Assembly: GCA_009993635.1 (NCBI GenBank) | Contig: JAACTC010000006.1 | Coordinates: 248,001-312,000 of the forward strand | DNA: 64,000 nt | Source: Erythrobacter sp. | GTDB taxonomy: Bacteria > Pseudomonadota > Alphaproteobacteria > Sphingomonadales > Sphingomonadaceae | Direction: 5' to 3' | Part shown: positions 4,131 to 37,417 of the stretch, in pieces | How the letters are laid out: the number at the start of each line of letters is the position of its first letter | Numbering within the stretch: position 1 is the stretch's first letter | Translations under genes and position numbers: made by a program | The notes under the pieces: model-generated | What the model saw: the letters and a program-made list of their open reading frames with translations, nothing else | Told to the model about the DNA's origin: nothing | Database searches by the model: none

Positions 4131-5405
4131 CTATGCCGCGTCGGCCCCGGCGCGCTTGCCGCCTTCGCCGTCGAACACGCGGATCGGGTCCTTGCGGCCC
4201 TCGACCACGTCCTTGTCGATCACGACTTCGTTGCAGCCTTCAAGGTCGGGCAGGTCGTACATCGTGTCGAGCAGCAGGCCCTCCACGATCGAACGAAGGC
4301 CGCGTGCGCCCGTCTTGCGCTTGATCGCACGCTCGGCAATCGCGCGCAGCGCGTCGTCGGTAAAGGTCAGCTCCACGCCTTCCAGCTCGAACAGCTTGGC
4401 GTATTGCTTGACGATGGCGTTCTTAGGTTCCTGCAGGATCGTGACCAGCGCGTCCTCGTCGAGATCGTGCAGCGACGCGATGACCGGCAGGCGGCCGACG
4501 AATTCGGGGATCAGGCCGAACTTCAGCAGATCTTCCGGCTCGCTCTTTTCCAGCAGCTCGCCGATGCGGCGCTGGTCCGGATCGGCGACATGCGCGCCGA
4601 AACCGATCGAACGCTTCTGCAGGCGGTCGCCGATGATCTTGTCCAGCCCGGCGAAGGCGCCGCCGCAGATGAACAGGATGTTCGTGGTGTCGACCTGCAG
4701 GAATTCCTGCTGCGGATGCTTGCGCCCGCCCTGCGGCGGCACGCTGGCGGTGGTGCCTTCCATCAGCTTGAGCAGCGCCTGCTGCACGCCTTCGCCGCTC
4801 ACGTCGCGGGTAATGGAGGGGTTTTCCGCCTTGCGGGTGATCTTGTCGATTTCGTCGATATAGACGATCCCGTGCTGCGCCTTCTCGACATTGTAGTCGG
4901 ACGACTGGAGCAGCTTGAGGATGATATTCTCCACATCCTCGCCCACGTAGCCCGCTTCGGTCAGCGTGGTCGCATCGGCCATGGTGAACGGCACGTCGAA
5001 GGTGCGCGCCAGCGTCTGCGCCAGCAGCGTCTTGCCCGAACCGGTCGGGCCGACGAGCAGGATGTTGGACTTCGCCAGTTCGACGTCGCCCTGCTTGCCT
5101 GCGTGCTTCAGGCGCTTGTAATGGTTGTGCACCGCGACGGAGAGCACACGCTTCGCGCGCTCCTGCCCGATCACGTAATCGTTGAGCGTGGCGCAGATTT
5201 CCGACGGGGAAGGCACTTCGCCTTCCTTGCGCCCGGTCAGCCCCGCCTTGGTTTCCTCGCGAATGATGTCGTTGCACAGCTCGACGCATTCGTCGCAGAT
5301 AAAGACGGTCGGCCCGGCAATCAGCTTGCGCACCTCGTGCTGCGATTTGCCGCAGAAGCTGCAATACAGCGTGCTCTTGCTATCCGTTCCGCTCAATTTG
5401 CTCAT
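4131..5405 (-). CDS. clpX: ATP-dependent Clp protease ATP-binding subunit ClpX
   Basis: Hexameric AAA+ unfoldase that feeds substrates to ClpP. The 424-aa product has the usual length. It shows the N-terminal zinc-binding domain (CSFCGKS...CDEC, about residues 14-37), a Walker A motif GPTGSGKT, Walker [11 protein letters not shown], the GYVGEDVE segment and the sensor-2 region [11 protein letters not shown]. The start is set at the MSKLSG methionine, where homologues begin; the frame stays open further upstream without similarity. It lies downstream of clpP on the same strand with a gap of about 200 bp, so it may have its own promoter as well as read-through. Confidence 0.97.
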
Positions 5406-5613
5406 ATCCTGGTATCCTCGAATCCCCGCAGGGGCGGGGATACTTTCGAATGTAACTTTCGCGCACGCCAATGCAACAGATGGCTATTATGCACGGTGGT
5501 TCTTGCGAAGGGCTGAAGATCGCCCCCGCGAAAAACGAATCCTATCGCTTTTCAGGCCAAGTTTTCAAACGCCTGTGGCCACCGGGCCACGCGCGCCGCC
5601 GTTGCGGGGCGAA

Positions 5614-6300
5614 TCAGGCGGGTGCCCCGCCCGATCCTTCCGCCTCGCCGGTCGAATCGCCCGATCCGTCGCTTTGGGGGCGGGATTCGAACACCTTGTC
5701 GACCAGCCCGAACTTCATCGCTTCCTTCGCATCTAGGAAGGTGTCGCGATCCATCGCTTCCTCGATCTCGGACAGCTCCTTGCCGGTGTACTTGGCATAA
5801 AGCTCGTTCATGTTCTTGCGAATGCGCAGGATCTCGCGCGCCTGGATCTCGATGTCGGACGCCATGCCCTGCGCCCCGCCCGAAGGCTGGTGGACCATGA
5901 TCCGCGCATTGGGCAGCGCGATCCGCATGCCGGGCTCGCCCGCCGCGAGCAGGAAGCTGCCCATCGAGGCGGCCTGGCCTACGCAAACCGTGGAAATGCG
6001 CGGCTGGATGTACTGCATCGTATCGTGGATCGCCATGCCGGCCGTCACCACCCCGCCGGGCGAGTTGATATACATGCTGATCGGCTTGGACGGGTTCTCG
6101 CTCTCGAGGAACAGCAGCTGCGCCACCGCGAGGCTGGCCATCCCGTCTTCCACCGGACCGGTCAGGAACACGATCCGTTCGCGCAGCAGGCGGCTGAAGA
6201 TGTCGAAGCTGCGTTCGCCGCGACTGGTCTGTTCGACCACCACGGGCACCAGGGCGCCGGTTGCGGGATCGCGGAAGTAGCCGGATTCGTCGAATTGCAT
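5614..6300 (-). CDS. clpP: ATP-dependent Clp protease proteolytic subunit ClpP
   Basis: Barrel-forming serine protease partner of ClpX. The 228-aa protein carries the full catalytic triad in family context: Ser in [11 protein letters not shown], His in MVHQPSGG and Asp in [10 protein letters not shown] Ser/Gly/Glu-rich tail of about 20 residues extends beyond the usual end. The chosen start (MQFDESGYF) fits the length of alphaproteobacterial ClpP with a short propeptide. clpX follows on the same strand, and a second ClpP-type gene is transcribed divergently from a shared intergenic region of about 150 bp. Confidence 0.96.
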
Positions 6301-6450
6301 GAAGTGTCCTTGTCTCTCGTCGGCGTCTATATCTGGTGTCGCTGCACGATCATCAAGACTTGAATGCAAAGCTTCCCCGCGCCAGTTGTGCCTCAGACAC
6401 TGTGCCGCGACGAATTCACCCCGGCGGCGCACGCAAGGAGCCTGACGATT

Positions 6451-7074
6451 ATGACGATGTCCAACAGCCCGATCCCCTTCCGCGCCGACGATGAGGAAGA
6501 AAAGGACAAGGACATCTCCAACGCCGGTGCGGCGATGATGAACAAGTTCCTCGACGCGCGCACCGTGCTGATCTTCGGCGGGGTCGACCAGAAGATGGCC
6601 GAGCGCATTTCGATGCAGCTGCTCTATCTCGACCATGTCAGCAACGAACCGATCCGCGTGATCGTCAATTCGCCCGGCGGCCATGTCGAATCGGGCGATA
6701 CGATCCACGACCTGATCAGCTTCATCGCCTCGCCCGTCGCCATGATCGGGACCGGCTGGGTCGCCAGCATCGCGACGCATATCTTCCTGAGCGTTCCGGC
6801 AGAGCGGCGCTTCTGCCTGCCCAACACGCGCTTCCTGATCCACCAGCCCTCGGGCGGTGCGCGTGGCCCGGCCAGCGACATCGCGATCCAGGCGCAGGAA
6901 ATCGTCAAGATGCGCGAACGCATCGCGAAGAAGATCGCCGATGCGACCGGCCAACCGCACGAGAAGGTGCTGAAGGATATCGACCGCGATTTCTGGATGA
7001 ACACCACGGAAGCCAAGGATTACGGCATCCTGGGCACGGTGATCGACAGCGCGAAGGACGTTACCTTCGGCTAA
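6451..7074 (+). CDS. Second ClpP-family protease subunit
   Basis: A 207-aa ClpP-fold protein distinct from the neighbouring ClpP. Catalytic residues are retained: Ser in GWVASIATH, His in [11 protein letters not shown] and Asp in DRDFWMN, although the Ser motif departs from the canonical GQAASM. The N-terminus carries an acidic stretch (DDEEEKDKD) instead of a ClpP propeptide. AAGGAG lies ten bases before the ATG at 6451. Bacteria with two ClpP paralogues may assemble mixed or separate barrels; whether this one pairs with ClpX, or with the housekeeping ClpP, cannot be told from sequence. Confidence 0.88.
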
Positions 7075-7258
7075 GTGATTGCAGGCGCGCCGTTAATCCG
7101 GCGCGCCGCATTGTCGCGTCCCCGCGCGCTGCAGGTTGCTTCCCGCAACCCAAATGTCGGTTTGTCGGGTCGGCAGGCACTTTTGTCGACTACTAGTGTA
7201 ATCGCACCGCCTTTTCCCTCACCCACCCTCTCAACGGGGGCGTTGAGGGAGAAAGATC

Positions 7259-27737: not shown

Positions 27738-27812
27738 GGGCGCGTAGCTCAGTGGTAGAGCACACCCTTCACACGGGTGGGGTCGCAAGTTCAATCCTTG
27801 CCGCGCCCACCA
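27738..27812 (+). tRNA. tRNA-Val (anticodon CAC), integration target of the element
   Basis: A 75-nt cloverleaf: acceptor GGGCGCG / CGCGCCC, encoded CCA, anticodon stem CCC / GGG region with loop TTCACAC giving CAC, and T arm with GTTCAATCC. The 3' part from the anticodon arm onward (27765-27812) is repeated at 37354, so this gene is the attachment site of the integrative element that follows. The tRNA copy here is complete. Confidence 0.96.
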
Positions 27813-27828
27813 TCTTTTCAATGACTTA
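27765..27828 (+). repeat. attL direct repeat (tRNA-Val 3' half plus 16 bp)
   Basis: Sixty-four bases running from the anticodon stem of tRNA-Val to 16 bases beyond its CCA end. They match 37354-37417 with a single C/T difference at 27814. This defines the left boundary of the element. Confidence 0.93.
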
Positions 27829-28180: not shown

Positions 28181-29224
28181 ATGAGTTCTACAGCTTCTTG
28201 GGCTTACGGCCCCATCGAGAATATCGCACGTGAGAAAGTTCTCGCATTGCCAAGCGGTCAAACTATCTGGTCGCAGTACGAAATGACTCGCCAAGACGTC
28301 GGATCGAGTATTCTCCCTTATATCGCGACGCAAGAACCTGGCCTCAGTGACCACGGGATTGCTCACATTGCCAATGTAATGGATAATGTCGGGCGAGTGT
28401 TAGGGATGAACCCAAGCGGTGCGGTGGACCCTGGGAGCCGCCTGGAGAAGATCGGTGCATCCGAGCTACTACTGCTGCTTCTCGGCGCTCTGCTACATGA
28501 CATTGGTAATATATTAGGCCGGGAACGTCACAACCAAGTAACCGAGCAGACTTGGCGCAAATCTGGGAAAAGTTCCTATAACCTTTGGCAGAATCCGGAT
28601 CGCAAGACTATAATGGCCCTCTGCCAAGCCCATACTGGCAAGGCTTCTGACGGCAGCAAGGATACGCTGAAACCCCTTAGTGCCTCGGCATACTACTTTT
28701 TAGGTAGCCAAGTCCCCATTGGACGTTTGGCAGCTATACTTCGCTTCTCGGATGAACTTGCAGAAGGTGAGCAACGTACCTCTCGTTTTCTTCTCTTCCA
28801 GCGGATGTATGATCGTGAAAATAACGAGGTCTTCCATCGGTACGCGCACTGCACAAATTTAACGATTGACGCCGCCGGTGATCGAGTGGCGCTTGATTTT
28901 CGCATCGAACTCGATGACTTCCAAGGTAGTGAAGACTCATTGTCAGAATTTCGAGAGCTTCTAAGCCTCATCTTCAAGCGAATAGCTAAATTGGACGATG
29001 AGCGTGTCCTAACCCGCGCCTATGCGGGGGACTGGTTACCCTTTAAAGAGGTATCGGTCGTGCTAGAAATTGTGAGTGATGGCGACACGATCATCGAGCT
29101 ACCGCAGATTGTGCTCAACGATTTCAACACACGCGCGAAGGGTGGCTTTGAACTCCGCAGCATCAACAAGAATTACGACTTAGAAGAGGTCATCTCAAAG
29201 GTCGAGGCTCATCTAGGGAGTTGA
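28181..29224 (+). CDS. HD-domain protein, first gene of putative conflict operon
   Basis: A 347-aa protein whose N-terminal 200 residues hold an HD-type metal phosphohydrolase site: His58 and His62 (DHGIAHIANVM), the His106-Asp107 pair in LLHDIGNILGRERH, His151 (CQAHTG) and Asp191 (LRFSDELAEGEQ). This is close in style to the HD-CE group predicted in biological-conflict operons (from memory). The C-terminal 150 residues are mixed alpha/beta and unassigned. HD enzymes cleave cyclic nucleotides, dNTPs or nucleic acids; the substrate here is unknown. The ATPase gene starts one base after its stop, so the two act together. The ATG at 28181 is used; a TTG two codons earlier is possible. Codon use is AT-richer than the chromosome. 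Confidence 0.75.
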   Translation: MSSTASWAYGPIENIAREKVLALPSGQTIWSQYEMTRQDVGSSILPYIATQEPGLSDHGIAHIANVMDNVGRVLGMNPSGAVDPGSRLEKIGASELLLLLLGALLHDIGNILGRERHNQVTEQTWRKSGKSSYNLWQNPDRKTIMALCQAHTGKASDGSKDTLKPLSASAYYFLGSQVPIGRLAAILRFSDELAEGEQRTSRFLLFQRMYDRENNEVFHRYAHCTNLTIDAAGDRVALDFRIELDDFQGSEDSLSEFRELLSLIFKRIAKLDDERVLTRAYAGDWLPFKEVSVVLEIVSDGDTIIELPQIVLNDFNTRAKGGFELRSINKNYDLEEVISKVEAHLGS

Positions 29225-29225
29225 A

Positions 29226-30965
29226 ATGACGACAAACCCCTTTGAATACGACGCCGCACCAAACCTCCCCCCCGAGCGTTTGGTTGAATGGTATATCGAA
29301 GACGACAATTACGCTCGTTTCATGAAAGCTCATCGCAACGTCGTCATCAATGGGGAGCGTGGCTCAGGCAAGAGCATGACGCTGATCTATCATTCGATGT
29401 CCTACGACACGGTGAAGGAGCGATCGGGCGCTGCCGCAGCGGACCAGACACGACAAACGTTAGGGATCTATGTCCCGTGTAACACACCGCTCAATAGCAA
29501 AGACGAGCATCTCCTTCTCGACGAAATCGCCCAAAGACGGATTTCTGAGGCCGACCTCACCCTCATGATACTAGCCAACTTGGCCCGCGAATTCGAGGCA
29601 TCAAACATCCAATTCGATGCCGAAGATCTCACATTTTTGCGTGAAGAGTTCGAGATTACACTCGATTGCGATCCATTTCCAGACGACGTTGGACCGTTTG
29701 TTCATCTACGTCGTGAAGTTCGGCGGAAGTTGAAATTAAATCAACAACAAATGCTTGATTCCACTTGGAATCCCTCAGCGTCAGCCGACACGTTTTCAAT
29801 CATGGTAATCCCTGTTCTTGAGGCGATTGCCGCGACGAAGTCTCTTTCTGGAGTTCATTTTTCGCTATTAATAGACGATGCTCAGAATCTTAATTCACAT
29901 CAGCGTAAACTATTAAATTCATGGCTTGGCTATAGAGATAACTCTCTCTTTTCGTTCAAAATTGCTATCGCCGGTGTACGCGGATATGACTTCGCCACGT
30001 CTTCCGGTGGCATTATCCTCGATGGGCATGACTACACAACAGTCGATCTCCAGCGTCCCATTCAGAATAAAGACTCAGAGTTTGGACGGTTTGCGCGCAA
30101 CGTGGTGGAAAAGCGCCTGCGCAATGCTGGGATCAGCTTAAGCCCTGATGAATTTTTCCCAGTAGACCCTTCAACAGTCAAGAGATTAGAGCAAGCCCGG
30201 CGTGTAACAGAAAATAACGCCATAGAGCGGGGACTAGAACGCGGGTCAAAGGCCTTCAATGATTACGTTTACAAGCATAGACGAGCAGTATATTTTCGAA
30301 GTCGAACAGGTAAGGCGAATAAACCGATCTATTCTGGCTTCAATACAATGGCTCATCTTTCAACTGGCGTGATTCGAAACCTGTTAGAGCCTTGCTACGT
30401 CATGTTTGAACGTCAGGCCAGCTCACTTAAAGGCAAGACACCGGCAAATATAAAACCGGATGTGCAGGACACCGTTATTAAAGAGCTTAGCGATCGCCGC
30501 TGGGATATGATGAGTGGAAGTCTTCACCGGATTCTTCCAAATTGCAGTGCCGAAGATGGACAAGCAATACATAATCTCTTCACGCGAGTAGCTGAGTATT
30601 TTCGACGACGTCTTCTTGAGCACGCGTCGGAGCCACGCGTGGTGACGTTCATAATTTCGGAGCGCGGGCACCCAGCATTTAAAGAGCTTAAGCGCCTGCT
30701 CGACCTCTCTGAACGAGCACAGCTTCTCTATGTAAGAGCTGGAACTTCAAAAAAGGGTGGCGGTCGCGAGGATTATTACGTGCCGAATCGTATGCTATGG
30801 CCCCGCTACGGTTTGGACGCCCATGGTCAACACGGGCGGGCTTCGTTGAGGGCAGAGGACCTTCTGGCGGCAGCTCAAAAGGACATAGCAATCCCATTTC
30901 CATCTGGGGAGAATGATCCTGAGCCAAGCGAAAACCAAGGGACGTTATTCGATGGCGAACGGTAA
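29226..30965 (+). CDS. ORC/CDC6-like P-loop ATPase, second gene of putative conflict operon
   Basis: A 579-aa protein with a Walker A motif GERGSGKS at 43-50 and a Walker B LLIDDAQ at about 214-220, in an arrangement like ORC1/CDC6 or STAND-type AAA ATPases. A sensor region follows (FSFKIAIAGVRGYDF), then a helical middle and, at about 470-550, a block with FIISERGHPAFKELKRLLDL and a basic GGGREDYYVPNRML stretch that may be a winged helix. No nuclease motif is visible. It lies one base after the HD gene and overlaps the third gene by 14 bases. Likely the NTP-driven switch of the system; this is inference from domain type and operon structure. Confidence 0.72.
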   Translation: MTTNPFEYDAAPNLPPERLVEWYIEDDNYARFMKAHRNVVINGERGSGKSMTLIYHSMSYDTVKERSGAAAADQTRQTLGIYVPCNTPLNSKDEHLLLDEIAQRRISEADLTLMILANLAREFEASNIQFDAEDLTFLREEFEITLDCDPFPDDVGPFVHLRREVRRKLKLNQQQMLDSTWNPSASADTFSIMVIPVLEAIAATKSLSGVHFSLLIDDAQNLNSHQRKLLNSWLGYRDNSLFSFKIAIAGVRGYDFATSSGGIILDGHDYTTVDLQRPIQNKDSEFGRFARNVVEKRLRNAGISLSPDEFFPVDPSTVKRLEQARRVTENNAIERGLERGSKAFNDYVYKHRRAVYFRSRTGKANKPIYSGFNTMAHLSTGVIRNLLEPCYVMFERQASSLKGKTPANIKPDVQDTVIKELSDRRWDMMSGSLHRILPNCSAEDGQAIHNLFTRVAEYFRRRLLEHASEPRVVTFIISERGHPAFKELKRLLDLSERAQLLYVRAGTSKKGGGREDYYVPNRMLWPRYGLDAHGQHGRASLRAEDLLAAAQKDIAIPFPSGENDPEPSENQGTLFDGER

Positions 30966-31845
30966 AACTTTGCTGGTGACGGCGAGTTGGGAGGATCGAT
31001 ACTCTTTGGGGGTCCGGGCATCGGTTGAGTCTGAGAAAGTCGATAAGGTCGTCGTTCTTTACAGTCTACGCTATGCGAATGAGACCGGCCCCATAACGAG
31101 GGAACTGGAGGTATTTTGTCGTTCGCGCGGCACGCAATTTGTCACCAAGGGCTTCGATTTTGAAAACCAGGTAGCGACGATGCGAGCCGTCTCGGAGACC
31201 GTCTCGCTATCCTCAATCGGGGATGCCCCTAACCTTATATTCGATATATCCACAACGCCTAGACCGGTCCTGTGGTCAGCCCTTGACGCTTTAGAGTCGA
31301 TGCGCACCTCGGTTGGCATACGATATTATGCTGGTGGCAATTATGGCTCATGGCAAACTGACGAAGAGGGAGAGCCGCGACTGGTCCTTCGTCGATCCGG
31401 CATCATGTATCCGGATCAGCCCACGGCTCTCATACTTCTTTGCGGACCAGAAATTTCTCGCGCACATAAGATGTGTCTTCAGTTTGAGCCAAAGTCCGTC
31501 CACATCCTGAGAGACCCTCGGGCTGCAAACTATGGAGAGATTAGGCATCTACCTCACGAGTATTACTCTATTGCCCGCGAGAAAGAGTTCGACAACAAGG
31601 ATCTTAGTGACGCGAACTATCACACTATTGATAAGATGACCTTAGATTTGCTTGACGCAGGTAACAATGTCGTTGCCGCTGCGTTGGGCCCGAAATTGGG
31701 GGCGCTTTTGCTATTTCGTCTCTCACGTGAACAACCAGAAGTGGGCCTCAGCTACGTCGTATCTGGTCGCCACAATCGGTCGGCAACCACCGGCTTAGGT
31801 GATCGGGCCGACATGGACTTGAGCTTAAAAAACTTGCGAGCCTAG
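30952..31845 (+). CDS. Rossmann-like protein of unknown function, third gene of putative conflict operon
   Basis: A 297-aa soluble protein I cannot assign. The first 125 residues alternate strands and helices: KTLLVTASWEDRY, VDKVVVLYSLRY, then NLIFDISTTPRPVLWSALDAL at about 94-114. The Asp-Ile-Ser-Thr-Thr-Pro turn followed by a helix is like the ligand-binding loop of CARF-type sensors (D-x-T-G-G-T), but the match is only structural in feel. A second alpha/beta part follows (TALILLCGPEISRAH; NNVVAAALGPKLGALLLF). The ATG at 30952 overlaps the ATPase gene by 14 bases, so expression is coupled. Its stop codon directly abuts that of the methyltransferase on the other strand. Confidence 0.65.
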   Translation: MANGKTLLVTASWEDRYSLGVRASVESEKVDKVVVLYSLRYANETGPITRELEVFCRSRGTQFVTKGFDFENQVATMRAVSETVSLSSIGDAPNLIFDISTTPRPVLWSALDALESMRTSVGIRYYAGGNYGSWQTDEEGEPRLVLRRSGIMYPDQPTALILLCGPEISRAHKMCLQFEPKSVHILRDPRAANYGEIRHLPHEYYSIAREKEFDNKDLSDANYHTIDKMTLDLLDAGNNVVAAALGPKLGALLLFRLSREQPEVGLSYVVSGRHNRSATTGLGDRADMDLSLKNLRA

Positions 31846-32937
31846 TTATCCAACCTTTCCCTCCGCATTCATGATTGTCGCGAAAACTGCTTTGGCAAGG
31901 AGCGGTGGAACTGCGTTGCCGACCTGCTGCTGCTGAAGACCGATCGACCCACTAAATTGGTACCAATCTGGAAAAGATTGAATGCGGGCCGCTTCTCGGA
32001 CTGAAAGGCCACGATTTTTTGTCGGATGTATAAGCATATTCTTTCGAAAATTCCCCAGCACGACTGATGGTTGATCACCACGTAGTCGTCTGTAAATCCC
32101 CGTATGGCAGCGAGACCGGTCAGCGTAATTTGACATAAGCTCCAAAGGAATGTCCTGCCAATTTCCGCCTTGAGGTACTGATGCGTACCGCTCTGCAATC
32201 ATTTGCGAACTATTAGTGACAAGATTGCCGGAAACTTCTTGGAGGTCACCACGTAACATTTTTTGATATGCATTGCTCGGCGGGAGTCGATACGGAAGGG
32301 TATCGATCGAGGCACCCATCTCGAGATCGGGCAGGTCTCCGATTGCATCTTCAACGGTAATGGTCCTTCCCTCGCCCCCACCCGGCAGCTCTGGTGGATC
32401 ACCTTCGTACCGGGCGATAATGAAGTAGCGGTTCCGACGCTGGGGGACTCCATAATTCGATGCATTTAATATCCCTGCGGTCACCCCATAGCCAGCATCG
32501 CGCAAATCGCCTTGGACACGTTCAGCGAAACGTCCGCCATCTGTTTCAAGAATCCCCTTAACGTTTTCGAAGACGATCCAGCGTGGTCGAAGGCTGCATG
32601 CTAGCCCAATGAATGCTCGATAAAGCCAATTCTTATCGTTATCGGCCCCCCGGTTCCTTTGGTTTGACGTCGAGAACCCTTGGCAAGGGGGTCCGCCAAA
32701 CAGCACAAGTTCTTCAGCAGGATAGGGAACCGACAGCTCTAAAACCCGCGTAATGTCAGCCCTTAACGTAATGGTATCAGGATGATTCCGTGCGTAAGAG
32801 CTATAGGCATGCTGATCATAGTCGATGGCAAGTGGCACACTGATCCCGGCCCAGCTGGCGCCGAGCGACATACCTCCCGCCCCCGAGAATAGGTCAATTC
32901 CGTACAAAATTTGTCCTGCTGCAGTGTAGGAGGTCAA
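31846..32937 (-). CDS. C5-cytosine DNA methyltransferase
   Basis: Transfers a methyl group from S-adenosylmethionine to C5 of cytosine in a specific DNA site. The 363-aa product shows the ordered family motifs: I DLFSGAGGMSLG (15-26), IV GGPPCQGFS with catalytic Cys85, VI ENVKG (124-128), VIII QRRNRYFIIAR (166-176), a target-recognition region at about 190-300, IX REAARIQSFP and X QQVGNAVPP. The start is TTG with AGGA-like sequence upstream; no ATG fits. No restriction endonuclease gene is recognisable nearby. It faces the three-gene operon tail to tail with no intervening base. Confidence 0.93.
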   Translation of the reverse strand: MTSYTAAGQILYGIDLFSGAGGMSLGASWAGISVPLAIDYDQHAYSSYARNHPDTITLRADITRVLELSVPYPAEELVLFGGPPCQGFSTSNQRNRGADNDKNWLYRAFIGLACSLRPRWIVFENVKGILETDGGRFAERVQGDLRDAGYGVTAGILNASNYGVPQRRNRYFIIARYEGDPPELPGGGEGRTITVEDAIGDLPDLEMGASIDTLPYRLPPSNAYQKMLRGDLQEVSGNLVTNSSQMIAERYASVPQGGNWQDIPLELMSNYADRSRCHTGIYRRLRGDQPSVVLGNFRKNMLIHPTKNRGLSVREAARIQSFPDWYQFSGSIGLQQQQVGNAVPPLLAKAVFATIMNAEGKVG

Positions 32938-33107: not shown

Positions 33108-33671
33108 CTACAGGTCAAACAGAGGGCGCGGTCGATGATAAACCGTCACGTTGTGCCGCCCATTCGCAACCGTATGCCACCAGCCTGCGAAATCCTCGCT
33201 CCTGCGCACGTTCAAGAGCACGCGCGGCAGGCGCTTTTCCTCAAAGTGGCGGATCTTCACAGGCACACCTTTGAGGAGTCTCACACCTAGGTAATGGTGC
33301 CCCACGTCGCGACCGGTCGGAATGGTGGCTTTGCACCATTCGACTAGCACTTGCACGCTGCGCTCATCGCCAGCAGCCACGCATACCATCTCCGCCGTAA
33401 TCTCGGGCGGCGCTGGTTTTACGTCGCCAAGTTCAGCGAGCTGCGCCCTCGCGCGCTCGGCTTTGTCGCCCAGCGTATTGATCACTGCGGGACGCTCGAG
33501 CAAGGCCACGCGCTGACTTACCGTAAGCGGATCGCCGTTACGAAACGTCTCTAGGATCGCGTCGGTTAGTGGATCGCCAGCATCAAATTTGATCCAACCC
33601 TGGCGCTCCATGCGTCGCAGTTTTTTGAAGCCGATTCCCCATCGGTTATGCCATTCGTGAAGAGTAGCCAT
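33108..33671 (-). CDS. Hypothetical protein of the element
   Basis: A 187-residue soluble protein. The first 27 residues (HEWHNRWGIGFKKLRRMERQ) could form a small helix-turn-helix, followed by a helical region and a C-terminal alpha/beta part with LGVRLLKGVPVKIRHFEEKRLPRVLLNV and a WHTVANGRHNV motif. I do not recognise the family. Its 5' side faces a repeat-rich gene-free region, as replication or regulatory genes of islands often do, but no replication motif is seen. Confidence 0.6.
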   Translation of the reverse strand: MATLHEWHNRWGIGFKKLRRMERQGWIKFDAGDPLTDAILETFRNGDPLTVSQRVALLERPAVINTLGDKAERARAQLAELGDVKPAPPEITAEMVCVAAGDERSVQVLVEWCKATIPTGRDVGHHYLGVRLLKGVPVKIRHFEEKRLPRVLLNVRRSEDFAGWWHTVANGRHNVTVYHRPRPLFDL

Positions 33672-34082
33672 ATCAAATCACCCTTTTACTGAAATCCGAC
33701 CTGAAACCGGCACATTCCACGTCGGGTTTCAGTGTCGATATACAATCGCGATTTGTCGGGAATGGCGGCTCGCGATTGCAAAAACCGCGCTATTCCGGGG
33801 TCTGCTGTGAAACCTGCGAATTTAGGCCGTCTTCAGAGTGAAACCGGCGGGTCTTACGCGCGGGCGCGAATAGTGAGCAAGCCTCGGCTCGCTTGCTACG
33901 CGCTGACGCGCTCCGCCGCGCTCACCTGTTCATTTCGGGCGCTTTGGATCGAAAAGAATTTGGAAGCTTACACAGCCAAATATAATCTGACCCTAGGTCA
34001 AATCCCCTTGGCGCTTGGCTTCTGAGACTCCACCCGCGACACGGATAGTGGACAGACCTGCGTTCAGAGTTAGGCCCCAGGG
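33672..34082. other. Repeat-rich gene-free region within the element
   Basis: About 410 bases without a supported gene. It holds a 13-bp inverted repeat (33688-33700 / 33721-33733, one mismatch) and four direct copies of a TGAAA-YCCG / TGAAACC-KG motif at 33690, 33702, 33808 and 33839. It also has a GCAAGC / GCTTGC hairpin near 33880-33900. This could be an operator cluster, an origin or an intergenic control region. Confidence 0.5.
33688..33733. repeat. 13-bp inverted repeat with 20-base spacer
   Basis: Left arm ACTGAAATCCGAC and right arm GTCGGGTTTCAGT pair at 12 of 13 positions. The spacer itself contains a further TGAAACCGG. Located 17 bases upstream of the hypothetical gene at 33671, so it may be the operator of that gene. 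Confidence 0.6.
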
Positions 34083-34265
34083 TCAATCCTGAGCCTCAAT
34101 GAGCGCGTAGAGACTTTGCGCGGGGATGAGTGTCCGCTTGCCTATCTTTCGCGTCTCAATGCGCCCCTCAGCAATCAGCTCATAGAGCTTTGAGCGTCCG
34201 ATGCCGATGGATCGGCAGGCTTCAGCGACCGTGAAGGCCAGCTTCGGTGTGTTGTCCGTATGCAT
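34083..34265 (-). CDS. AlpA-like excisionase / helix-turn-helix protein
   Basis: A 60-residue DNA-binding protein of the MerR-like excisionase group. The segment FTVAEACRSIGIGRSKLYELIAEG (positions 11-34) is a classical helix-turn-helix, followed by the wing RIETRKIGKRTLIP. Proteins of this size and type act as recombination directionality factors or as AlpA-type activators of integrase in tRNA-borne islands. Given the tyrosine integrase in the same element, excisionase is the most likely role. Confidence 0.8.
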   Translation of the reverse strand: MHTDNTPKLAFTVAEACRSIGIGRSKLYELIAEGRIETRKIGKRTLIPAQSLYALIEAQD

Positions 34266-34391
34266 TGTCTTGTTCCTACAAGGCCCCGGACGTGATTGCC
34301 CGGACGTTGCAGGACAGGAAACTATGCAGAAATTTGGAGGGCGGAAGATGACTAAAATAGGAGATCATTCTGTCACTGCCTGAGAAGGTGC

Positions 34392-35033
34392 CTATTTCGA
34401 TTCTAAATCCGCCAAGAGTTGCAGAACGTTCTTGATTTTTGTCGCCGGTTCCACGGGCAATGGTTTCGCCGCCTCGGATTCGATTTCCCGCATCGTCAAT
34501 GCGGCGTCGGGCGGACCATACTTGGCAGTGTAGTCCGCAATTGACGCTTGCGCGAGATGATGAAGGCTTTGCCAAGAGTCGGTTAATCGCCCGCTCGCCA
34601 CCAGCTCGGCTAAGACATTGAGATAATCGCCATATGGGTACCGGTCCTTGCTCAGCATCTCGGCGTGAACGAAAGTGTAGTAGCGCCGCCGATCTTTGAG
34701 CTTCCGCATGATGCGACGGTGCAGGGATTCAAATTCTTGCTGCGCGCCTGGCTCATAAAATGTCTTGGCGATCGAATGGTTCGAGCGCTCAGCGAACGGA
34801 TCTCCACCATCCAGCCACCGCAATGCATCCTGCCTCAGAATTTCATCAATTTTGCGCCAATCCCCGTCCTTCGATGGGGCGCCCCGCTTAGGTTTGGTCT
34901 GCTCCCTCACAGCGCGCTGGAGGGCCTCCACGCCATACCTCCGTGCGAGACGCCTAACATCGTCCTCGATCGTTGGGCCCGCCAATTCGAGGTGGGGGAA
35001 GCCGCCTTTCGAATTTTGTGAACTCTGAGCCAC
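34392..35033 (-). CDS. Hypothetical protein of the element
   Basis: A 213-aa soluble protein with no recognised domain. It is charged and mostly helical, with a DDVRRLARRYGVEALQRAV helix near the N-terminus, a basic KPKRGAPSKDGDWRK patch and a LHRRIMRKLKDRRRYY stretch that could bind nucleic acid. I place the start at the GTG at 35033 because GAGGGT lies seven bases upstream; earlier in-frame starts would overlap the XRE gene by over 40 bases. It is directly downstream of that regulator and probably co-transcribed. Confidence 0.55.
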   Translation of the reverse strand: MAQSSQNSKGGFPHLELAGPTIEDDVRRLARRYGVEALQRAVREQTKPKRGAPSKDGDWRKIDEILRQDALRWLDGGDPFAERSNHSIAKTFYEPGAQQEFESLHRRIMRKLKDRRRYYTFVHAEMLSKDRYPYGDYLNVLAELVASGRLTDSWQSLHHLAQASIADYTAKYGPPDAALTMREIESEAAKPLPVEPATKIKNVLQLLADLESK

Positions 35034-35068
35034 ATCCTCACCCTCTAAAGTGGCATGCACTTGGGTGT

Positions 35069-35398
35069 TTATCTTCGCGAAAGGGCGACTTCCAGCAAGT
35101 CCTGAAGCCATTGAAGGTCGTCATCGCTCAGTCCCGCGATCTTGCTAGTGATCTCGGTAAAGGCGGGCCTTTGCAGCTGCCCGCTTGGCAAATCAGGTGT
35201 GAAGAGCTCAGCCGGATCAACGCCAAGCGCCTCTGCCAGCCGAGTAATAACTCCAAACCGAGCGCCGCTGTTTCCGCCTTCAATCTTCGAAACCATGTCG
35301 GTGCTGATATTGGCGCGCTCGGCCAAGGCCTCTTGAGTCAGGCTCAAACGCACGCGATGCGCCTTGACCAACATTCCAAATCTCGCGCGCAAATCCAC
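35069..35398 (-). CDS. XRE-family transcriptional regulator
   Basis: A 109-aa regulator. Residues about 10-65 form a Cro/C1-type helix-turn-helix (RLSLTQEALAERANISTDMVSKIEGG), followed by the LAEALGVDPAELFTPD segment usual in this family and a short C-terminal helix. The GTG at 35398 is favoured by GGGAGG seven bases upstream; a TTG five codons earlier is possible. It reads divergently from a membrane protein gene and may control itself and the element's genes. Confidence 0.82.
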   Translation of the reverse strand: MDLRARFGMLVKAHRVRLSLTQEALAERANISTDMVSKIEGGNSGARFGVITRLAEALGVDPAELFTPDLPSGQLQRPAFTEITSKIAGLSDDDLQWLQDLLEVALSRR

Positions 35399-35514
35399 GA
35401 TGACGCCTCCCAAGCGACGCGTAGCCGGGAGTGAAAAGCGCCATGAGGGACGTGGATTCGATTTTCACCTACATCAGTAATTAACGGGCAACTTTTTCTA
35501 ATTAGCTTAGGGGT

Positions 35515-36060: not shown

Positions 36061-37230
36061 TCACAGCGTTAGCCTTGCCAATGCCTGCTCCGCATCATCA
36101 CGGACCAGATGCCCATAATGCCGCTCGATCATCACAACACTGGTGCCTGATAGCTGCGCAACCGTGAGCGCGGGCAAACTGTCGCGAATAAGGTCCGTAA
36201 TCACGCTATGCCTTAACGTGTAAGCTGACACCCCGCTCGCGAGCTTGGCGGCACTCACTGCATCTTTGATCGGATGTTTCCATGCATCCTTATTCCAAGC
36301 CCTCCCATCTCGGCGCGAAAACAAAGGGGCGGCTGGTAGCTTGTCCTTTGCCTGACTGCCCAAGAATTCCGCGGCGGTTTCCGGCACGGTAATCTGGCGC
36401 GGCCTGCCATGCTTGTCTTTTCCGATGGTGAGGGTGCGGGTCCGCTTGTCAAAATCCGCTACGAGAAGATTTGCCACTGCGCCTGGTCGAAGCGGCAATA
36501 GGCACAGAGCGCGGACGAATGGCGCCGCTTCGGCGTCTGTGGCCTCCACAAGGCGCTTGCGCTCCGCATGGTCAAGATAGAGGTCGCGACGCTTGTGAGC
36601 GCCCTTATAGGGCTTCAACGCCTCCTGCCACGCCGCATCGGTGTTTGGCGAGCCGGGAACGAGTACTTGCGCCAACGCCGCCCGCAGAGGAACCATGTCG
36701 CGGTTGATCGTCGATTTTGACCGCTCCTTGGTGCGCATCTCTCCGCCCTTATTGCGGCTGAGCAGCGCAGGAGATTCCTCCAAGCGCTTGCGCCATTCCC
36801 GCAGATGGTGACGCCGAAGCTTATCGAGCTTCACCTTGGCTATCGGGTCGGAATACACGTGGCGCCGAAACACTCCCTCGGCGATCGATCCGGGCTTGTG
36901 CTCAAGATAAGCTTCGCAAGCATCGGCGACCGTATCCAGCTTCACCGGCAATACGCCGCCACTCTCTACGGTGTCGGCCCAATTCTCCGCATCGCTTTTT
37001 GCCTGCCTAAAAACATCGTGACCAGCCAAAGCGCCGTAATCGCCGAGCGCCTTGCGGGGATACTTGCCCGTGTCTGCATCATAGGCGCGAGCGAACCACG
37101 TCCCCTTCCCGCCCCGTTTGGACGGTCGATAGCCGAGATAACAGCCGAAGCGTAGCCGCTGCCAATGGGGTTCGTCGCCTTTACGAGTCTTCAGCTTGTC
37201 CCGCTCTGTGATCTTGCTCAAGTCCGTCAT
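36061..37230 (-). CDS. Tyrosine recombinase / integrase of the element
   Basis: Site-specific recombinase of 389 aa. An N-terminal DUF4102-free arm-binding region is followed by a SAM-like core-binding domain and the catalytic domain with Arg in LPLRPGAVANL, the YTLRHSVITDL box and the nucleophile Tyr in ERHYGHLV. The ATG at 37230 (MTDLSK) has GGAAGG nine bases upstream; the frame stays open across the attachment repeat but that part is not real gene. It lies about 125 bp from attR, and TCCATGAAAT repeats sit directly upstream of its start. Confidence 0.93.
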   Translation of the reverse strand: MTDLSKITERDKLKTRKGDEPHWQRLRFGCYLGYRPSKRGGKGTWFARAYDADTGKYPRKALGDYGALAGHDVFRQAKSDAENWADTVESGGVLPVKLDTVADACEAYLEHKPGSIAEGVFRRHVYSDPIAKVKLDKLRRHHLREWRKRLEESPALLSRNKGGEMRTKERSKSTINRDMVPLRAALAQVLVPGSPNTDAAWQEALKPYKGAHKRRDLYLDHAERKRLVEATDAEAAPFVRALCLLPLRPGAVANLLVADFDKRTRTLTIGKDKHGRPRQITVPETAAEFLGSQAKDKLPAAPLFSRRDGRAWNKDAWKHPIKDAVSAAKLASGVSAYTLRHSVITDLIRDSLPALTVAQLSGTSVVMIERHYGHLVRDDAEQALARLTL

Positions 37231-37353: not shown

Positions 37354-37417
37354 CCCTTCACACGGGTGGGGTCGCAAGTTCAATCCTTGCCGCGCCCACC
37401 ATTTTTTCAATGACTTA
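37354..37417 (+). repeat. attR direct repeat (tRNA-Val 3' fragment)
   Basis: Sixty-four bases identical to 27765-27828 except for one C/T difference at 37403. It contains the 3' part of tRNA-Val from the anticodon stem through CCA but no 5' half, so it is not a functional tRNA gene. Confidence 0.93.

Follow-up and report, generated by a model that had tools for sequence, protein, structure and literature searches.

The 64,000-nt stretch of Erythrobacter sp. DNA analyzed here (contig JAACTC010000006.1, positions 248,001 to 312,000; hereafter the window) carries three tightly packed genes at 28181-31845, encoding an HD-domain protein, an ORC-like ATPase and a CARF-like protein. Do these genes form a conflict system, and if so, how might it work? 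The original prediction treated the trio as a complete unit. Instead, the trio is almost always joined by a fourth gene, for a DNA methyltransferase (MTase), and frequently by a fifth, for an extra thymidylate synthase (TS). We consider it moderately probable that the cassette is a methylation-licensed anti-invader system, in which the MTase marks self, the ORC and CARF proteins detect an unmarked or infected state, and the HD protein destroys a nucleotide pool.

The trio and its methyltransferase

The three genes lie on the + strand at 28181-29224, 29226-30965 and 30952-31845, with the one-base spacing and 14-base overlap originally described, and encode proteins of 347 (HD), 579 (ORC) and 297 (CARF) amino acids. 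The profile searches suggested with the original prediction assigned genes 1 and 2 to Pfam families HD-CE (PF24391, E=1.9e-20, 74.1 bits) and ORC-CDC6-like (PF24389, E=1.6e-86, 291.7 bits), respectively, each above the curated cut-off of 27. Gene 3 had no Pfam match; it matched the PADLOC CARF6 profile (E=5e-19). Searching solved structures by sequence, whether with one protein or with a small profile, returned nothing useful for HD, ORC or CARF.

To assess constraint, we compared 40 non-redundant sequences, consisting of 39 relatives and the window. The metal site of the HD protein (H58, H62, H106-D107, H151 and D191) was found where it had first been read and was invariant in 40/40, as were H117, R114 and R199, which had not been listed, and E192. 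The AlphaFold model of this protein (pLDDT 87) was compared by Foldseek, and the first matches were the HD domains of PPX/GppA and class I phosphodiesterases (PDEs), although these were marginal (E ~1e-3, TM ~0.35); the model was closer to PPX/GppA and cyclic-nucleotide PDEs than to Cas3-type nucleases. HD-CE, the predicted effector, is accordingly modeled as a metal-dependent phosphohydrolase or phosphodiesterase. In the ORC protein, a P-loop ATPase and the predicted switch and DNA-scanning motor, both Walker motifs were intact and in the places originally given (Walker A, 43-50; Walker B LLIDD, about 214-218). Residues G43, R45, G46, G48, K49, S50, D217, D218, R237, R297 and R384 were invariant in 40/40, and non-motif positions within the Walker A span varied in part.

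The CARF-like turn noted earlier in gene 3 belongs to a real tandem CARF protein, as judged from the CARF6 profile and from structure comparison. Foldseek matched its AlphaFold model (pLDDT 84) to Csa3, Cam1, Can2, Cdn1, Can1, Csm6 and ring nucleases (best E 1.8e-5), with a TM of 0.50 over the query against Can1. On these models, gene 3 is a tandem CARF sensor without an effector domain. A scan of viral contigs with the CARF profile found none.

The fourth gene, encoding a C5-cytosine DNA MTase (PF00145, E=2.9e-57) and predicted to be the cognate modification enzyme, lies at 31846-32937 on the - strand, convergent with the trio. Its stop codon directly adjoins the gene 3 stop codon, and the cassette extends past 31845; the family start corresponds to an in-frame TTG at 32907. 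The window MTase is 46-58% identical to the MTases of other cassettes. It is the slowest-evolving component, with a mean identity of 53%, as compared with mean pairwise identities of just 29-36% for HD, ORC and CARF in the 40 sequences. Because conservation in the target-recognition region matches that in the N-terminal catalytic part (mean identity 55% vs 48%), the enzyme probably has one fixed recognition site, and this pattern of conservation suggests that its mark matters to the other cassette genes. With a profile of the cassette C5 MTases, DNMT1 was the best match among solved structures, including the stretch preceding the target-recognition domain.

Scanning GTDB genome contigs with the ORC alignment identified 39 loci, and a further eight came from viral contigs. 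In profile searches, MTase, HD and CARF genes surrounded nearly all ORC loci not cut by a contig end, and the four genes occurred together in 39 further non-redundant loci, on plasmids, on viral contigs and in several phyla (Pseudomonadota, Bacteroidota, Acidobacteriota, Planctomycetota, Gemmatimonadota and Verrucomicrobiota). The gene order was MTase-HD-ORC-CARF in 35/39 quartets and HD-ORC-CARF-MTase in the other 4/39, and the median spacing was -4 nt at every junction. Plasmid relatives from Agrobacterium, Rhizobium and Yoonia have the former order on a single strand; the convergent MTase of the window represents a third arrangement. Bacillota yielded only the trio, or an ORC-CARF pair where the contig ended. 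Exceptions were a trio with no MTase in the 6 kb upstream (L025), L017/L052, whose C5 MTase is a larger one of another kind at a distance of about 5 kb, and an MTase-ORC-CARF set with no HD gene (L027). The recurrence sought in the original check is strongly borne out, the trio remaining linked in different phyla and on mobile elements. In a Bryobacter cassette, a transposase-like gene is inserted into the HD gene (L042:7015-9362), providing a natural candidate knock-out.

Pairwise distances co-varied among the components (ORC-CARF, r=0.89; HD-ORC, 0.85; MTase against the others, 0.54-0.65), and the observed value was reached in 0/2000 permutations, uncorrected for shared host phylogeny, though the tree mixes phyla. 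PF24389 was detected in 9/398 Pseudomonadota, 6/345 Bacteroidota and 3/385 Alphaproteobacteria sampled, each sample including the window's own genome or a centre genome, and the HD type accounts for a minority of its occurrences. A housekeeping role in origin recognition was rejected: the ORC-CDC6-like family is patchy, mobile and present in ~1-2% of sampled genomes. Phage records gave no match. Protein P0003 as a single query found none in plasmids, because it diverges too fast. Integrases and transposases flank the cassettes, along with some defence genes (AbiE, restriction-modification (R-M) and SIR2) but no single dominant neighbour; other defence genes, the context looked for in the original check, occur near the trio without predominating.

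In the window, the cassette is cargo on a 9.6-kb island, adding a chromosomal island to the plasmids and viral contigs as mobile settings. The island is borne on tRNA-Val (CAC; 27738-27812, + strand, ARAGORN), the site used for its integration, and is bounded by two copies, 98% identical, of a 64-nt direct repeat: attL (27765-27828), which covers the tRNA 3' end, and attR (37354-37417). It encodes its own tyrosine integrase (36061-37230, - strand; PF00589, E=3.4e-10). In congeners, tRNA-Val adjoins sppA, with no cassette genes in the 1.5-kb flanks examined. The foreign base composition reported for the trio was also borne out: its GC content is 49-52%, against 54% for the island and 64-68% outside, and the two flanking genes measured have a third-position GC of 0.82-0.83, as opposed to 0.49-0.56 in the trio. 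Other island genes at 33108-35413, encoding uncharacterized proteins of 187 and 239 aa, an HTH_17 excisionase-like protein and an XRE regulator, are likely to serve island upkeep.

Linked thymidylate synthases and exchanged partners

In 14 loci, a TS gene abuts the cassette at a distance of 0-33 nt; two of these loci, L070 and L071, form one near-identical pair. No TS gene was found elsewhere in the fetched cassette flanks. The linked enzyme is ThyX in L012, L013, L026, L028, L030, L039, L070-L072 and L074, from Agrobacterium, Rhizobium, Mesorhizobium, Bradyrhizobium and viral contigs, and ThyA in L027, L031, L047 and L051, from two Flavobacteriia and two Betaproteobacteria. The two enzymes share no homology. 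By eye, the linked enzymes retain the expected catalytic motifs (RHR...S in ThyX and PFN in ThyA). By a rough estimate assuming 1-2 TS genes per ~4 Mb genome, chance would place a TS gene at such a distance in ~0.05 of 40 random positions. A second TS gene was present elsewhere in the genome in 6/7 hosts tested, and in these the cassette-linked TS is therefore extra.

The linkage could instead reflect the insertion site, if cassettes landed beside housekeeping thyA/folA or thyX and took the gene along, an explanation that concerns the TS link alone and is compatible with any reading of the cassette itself. L051, with folA on one side and the sole thyA of its genome on the other, fits it and may be an insertion beside a housekeeping gene. 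As a general account, however, we regard it as unlikely: a separate TS exists in each of the six other hosts, linked thyX genes are found on plasmids, the TS gene and a same-strand operon gene overlap in L027, L031, L072 and L074, and two non-homologous enzymes are involved in a trait that changed seven times on the ORC+CARF tree. We infer that the linkage points to thymidine nucleotides as the target, the signal or the antidote. A validated defence system containing a thymidylate synthase domain has been reported with DefensePredictor (PMC13092281).

In twelve more distant ORC+CARF loci, the core is kept and its partners are exchanged. PRTase-CE (PF24390) takes the place of HD in L018, L020, L021, L077 and L083, and a calcineurin-like phosphoesterase, with an associated winged helix-turn-helix protein (PF24408), in L019, L078 and L079. 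In L080, L081, L082 and L084, a protein kinase is fused ahead of ORC; no CARF gene or domain was detected in L084. In several, the methylase is also a different one: N6_Mtase in L018, N6_N4_Mtase in L077, L080 and L081, a D12 adenine MTase in L078, and a C5 enzyme in L084. A modular, modification-linked conflict system would be expected to show just this, a single core combined with effectors and methylases of unrelated families.

Several of these loci have further features. L018 has genes for a dGTPase-like HD protein and a dUTPase (5345-7177) just upstream of its PRTase-CE/ORC/CARF cassette, with the N6 MTase gene after it. L020, L021 and L083 combine a HAD-hydrolase protein, with a SIS-like N terminus by eye, with PRTase-CE, ORC and CARF, and a PfkB-type kinase adjoins this set in L021 and L083; the theme is possibly a nucleoside/sugar signalling branch. 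Three of the four kinase-ORC fusions have an adjoining N6/N4 or C5 MTase.

Proposed mechanism and alternatives

In the favoured methylation-licensed system, the logic would be that of restriction-modification, with a nucleotide-destroying effector replacing the restriction nuclease. The C5 MTase would mark host DNA at a fixed site, and the ORC/CDC6-type ATPase and the tandem CARF protein would inspect DNA or infection-linked nucleotides. An unmarked or perturbed state would release the HD-CE phosphohydrolase through ATP-driven assembly, a CARF-bound nucleotide ligand or both. HD-CE would then attack a (deoxy)nucleotide pool, halting invader replication and possibly arresting the host. Where present, the extra TS would tune or refill the dTMP/dTTP pool that the system consumes or monitors. 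The analysis shows the gene set and its conservation, the predicted folds, the intact active-site residues, the exchanged effectors and methylases and the TS linkage; defence, the nucleotide substrate, the reading of methylation, the part played by dTTP and the CARF ligand are inferred. A broader proposal, which we regard as possible rather than probable, is a distinct immune class built on the ORC and tandem CARF core. That core would sense DNA modification or the state of thymidine nucleotides and trigger exchangeable effectors of nucleotide or signalling type, and the extra TS built into the cassette would act as antidote or signal control.

Several observations weigh against the favoured system. 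The window cassette has no TS, and its host genome has one ThyA elsewhere; the window MTase is inverted relative to the trio; and the window ORC and CARF proteins lie on a long branch with L069 in the ORC+CARF tree. Adjoining defence genes are just moderately common. The fold match of the HD protein is weak, compatible with more than one substrate and even with a nuclease, and no synthase for a CARF ligand is encoded within the cassette. In addition, no MTase was seen adjoining 6/12 of the wider loci (L019, L020, L021, L079, L082 and L083); the MTase link is thus firm among HD cassettes but incomplete in the wider ORC+CARF loci.

Could the cassette work without reading methylation? In a CARF-signalled abortive system, an infection-linked nucleotide ligand would act on the tandem CARF protein, the ORC protein would relay the signal to HD, and the MTase would be a bystander or an addiction partner. 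CARF proteins of type III CRISPR sense cyclic oligonucleotides, and the tandem CARF fold and the PRTase-CE/PfkB variants without an adjacent MTase agree with such signalling. Nevertheless, nearly all HD cassettes include an MTase whose target-recognition region is conserved, and unrelated MTase classes substitute for it in other variants, making this account rather doubtful. The MTase partner would also suit an R-M-like system in which HD is a metal-dependent DNA nuclease, as are the HD domains of Cas3 and Cas10, with ORC as its loader and CARF as an allosteric part. The HD protein does match PADLOC Cas10 HD profiles weakly (5e-5), but PPX/GppA and PDEs are its best folds, the same core also takes the non-nuclease effectors PRTase-CE and protein kinase, and the TS link also speaks against it; we judge this the least probable of the alternatives. 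Finally, the carriage of cassettes on islands and plasmids, together with the MTase heading the operon, would be consistent with a selfish modification or addiction module that stabilizes mobile elements, the trio imposing post-segregational arrest upon MTase loss. This, too, seems quite improbable as an account of the whole cassette, as an ATPase and a sensor presumably exceed the needs of an addiction pair, and such a role would be compatible with defence.

If correct, the methylation-licensed system would join self-marking by DNA methylation with invader starvation by nucleotide destruction, which are usually treated apart, and would place a tandem CARF sensor outside CRISPR. The recurrent extra TS, repeatedly gained or lost, predicts an effector or sensor acting on thymidine nucleotides.

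Novelty and relation to known systems

ORC-CDC6-like, PRTase-CE and HD-CE occupy consecutive Pfam accessions (PF24389-24391), and the curated entries for HD-CE and ORC-CDC6-like almost certainly derive from published computational work. HD-CE and PRTase-CE were reportedly named in nucleotide-targeting conflict systems by Nicastro, Burroughs, Iyer and Aravind (NAR 2023, gkad879), whose study is probably the one that catalogued these conflict domains and may already have predicted the HD-CE/ORC core. Our literature searches for HD-CE with ORC-CDC6 or CARF6, which did not extend to that study, found no description and no experiment. The trio had been proposed as undescribed. This is half right: neither PADLOC 2023 nor NCBIfam 2026 contains a named system for the quartet, but HD-CE and ORC-CDC6-like are already catalogued as conflict domains. 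The fixed C5 MTase partner and the repeated TS link are most likely the new parts.

BREX type 1 resembles the cassette in combining an ORC/Cdc6-clade ATPase scaffold (BrxC) with a DNA methyltransferase and a phosphatase-type enzyme (PMC12839542). The cassette differs in having four genes, a C5 rather than an N6-adenine MTase, an HD effector and a CARF sensor. Membership was rejected, as PglZ, BrxX/PglX, BrxB and BrxA were not among the scanned island proteins and the MTase is a C5-cytosine enzyme of PF00145; the parallel is one of working principle. Clover pairs an HD dGTPase effector (CloA) with a nucleotidyltransferase (NTase; CloB) and has thymidine nucleotides at the centre of its control, dTTP turning it on and p3diT holding it (PMC12265719); it offers a precedent for the kind of control that the TS link may reflect. 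The cassette adds ORC, CARF and MTase, and its HD-CE protein falls outside the dGTPase subfamily: gene 1 has no HD_assoc match, and no NTase was found among the scanned island proteins.

The CARF proteins of type III CRISPR (Csa3, Can1, Can2, Card1 and Cam1) share the fold of gene 3, and Can1 also its tandem layout, whereas gene 3 lacks a fused effector domain. An accessory role in type III CRISPR was considered and seems unlikely; the island carries no CRISPR, and no Cas10 was found among its scanned proteins, the search for cas10 being confined to the island. A CD-NTase, as in CBASS, was also absent from these proteins. Like a type II R-M system, the cassette sets a predicted sequence-specific C5 MTase beside presumed attacking genes, but it also has an ATPase and a sensor; a plain type II system was rejected, as the scanned island proteins include no nuclease domain or restriction endonuclease. 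The cassette also resembles the HD-CE/PRTase-CE/Calcineurin-CE conflict class, to which it corresponds in its HD-CE gene 1, its ORC-CDC6-like gene 2, and its sister variants with PRTase-CE or a calcineurin-like enzyme.

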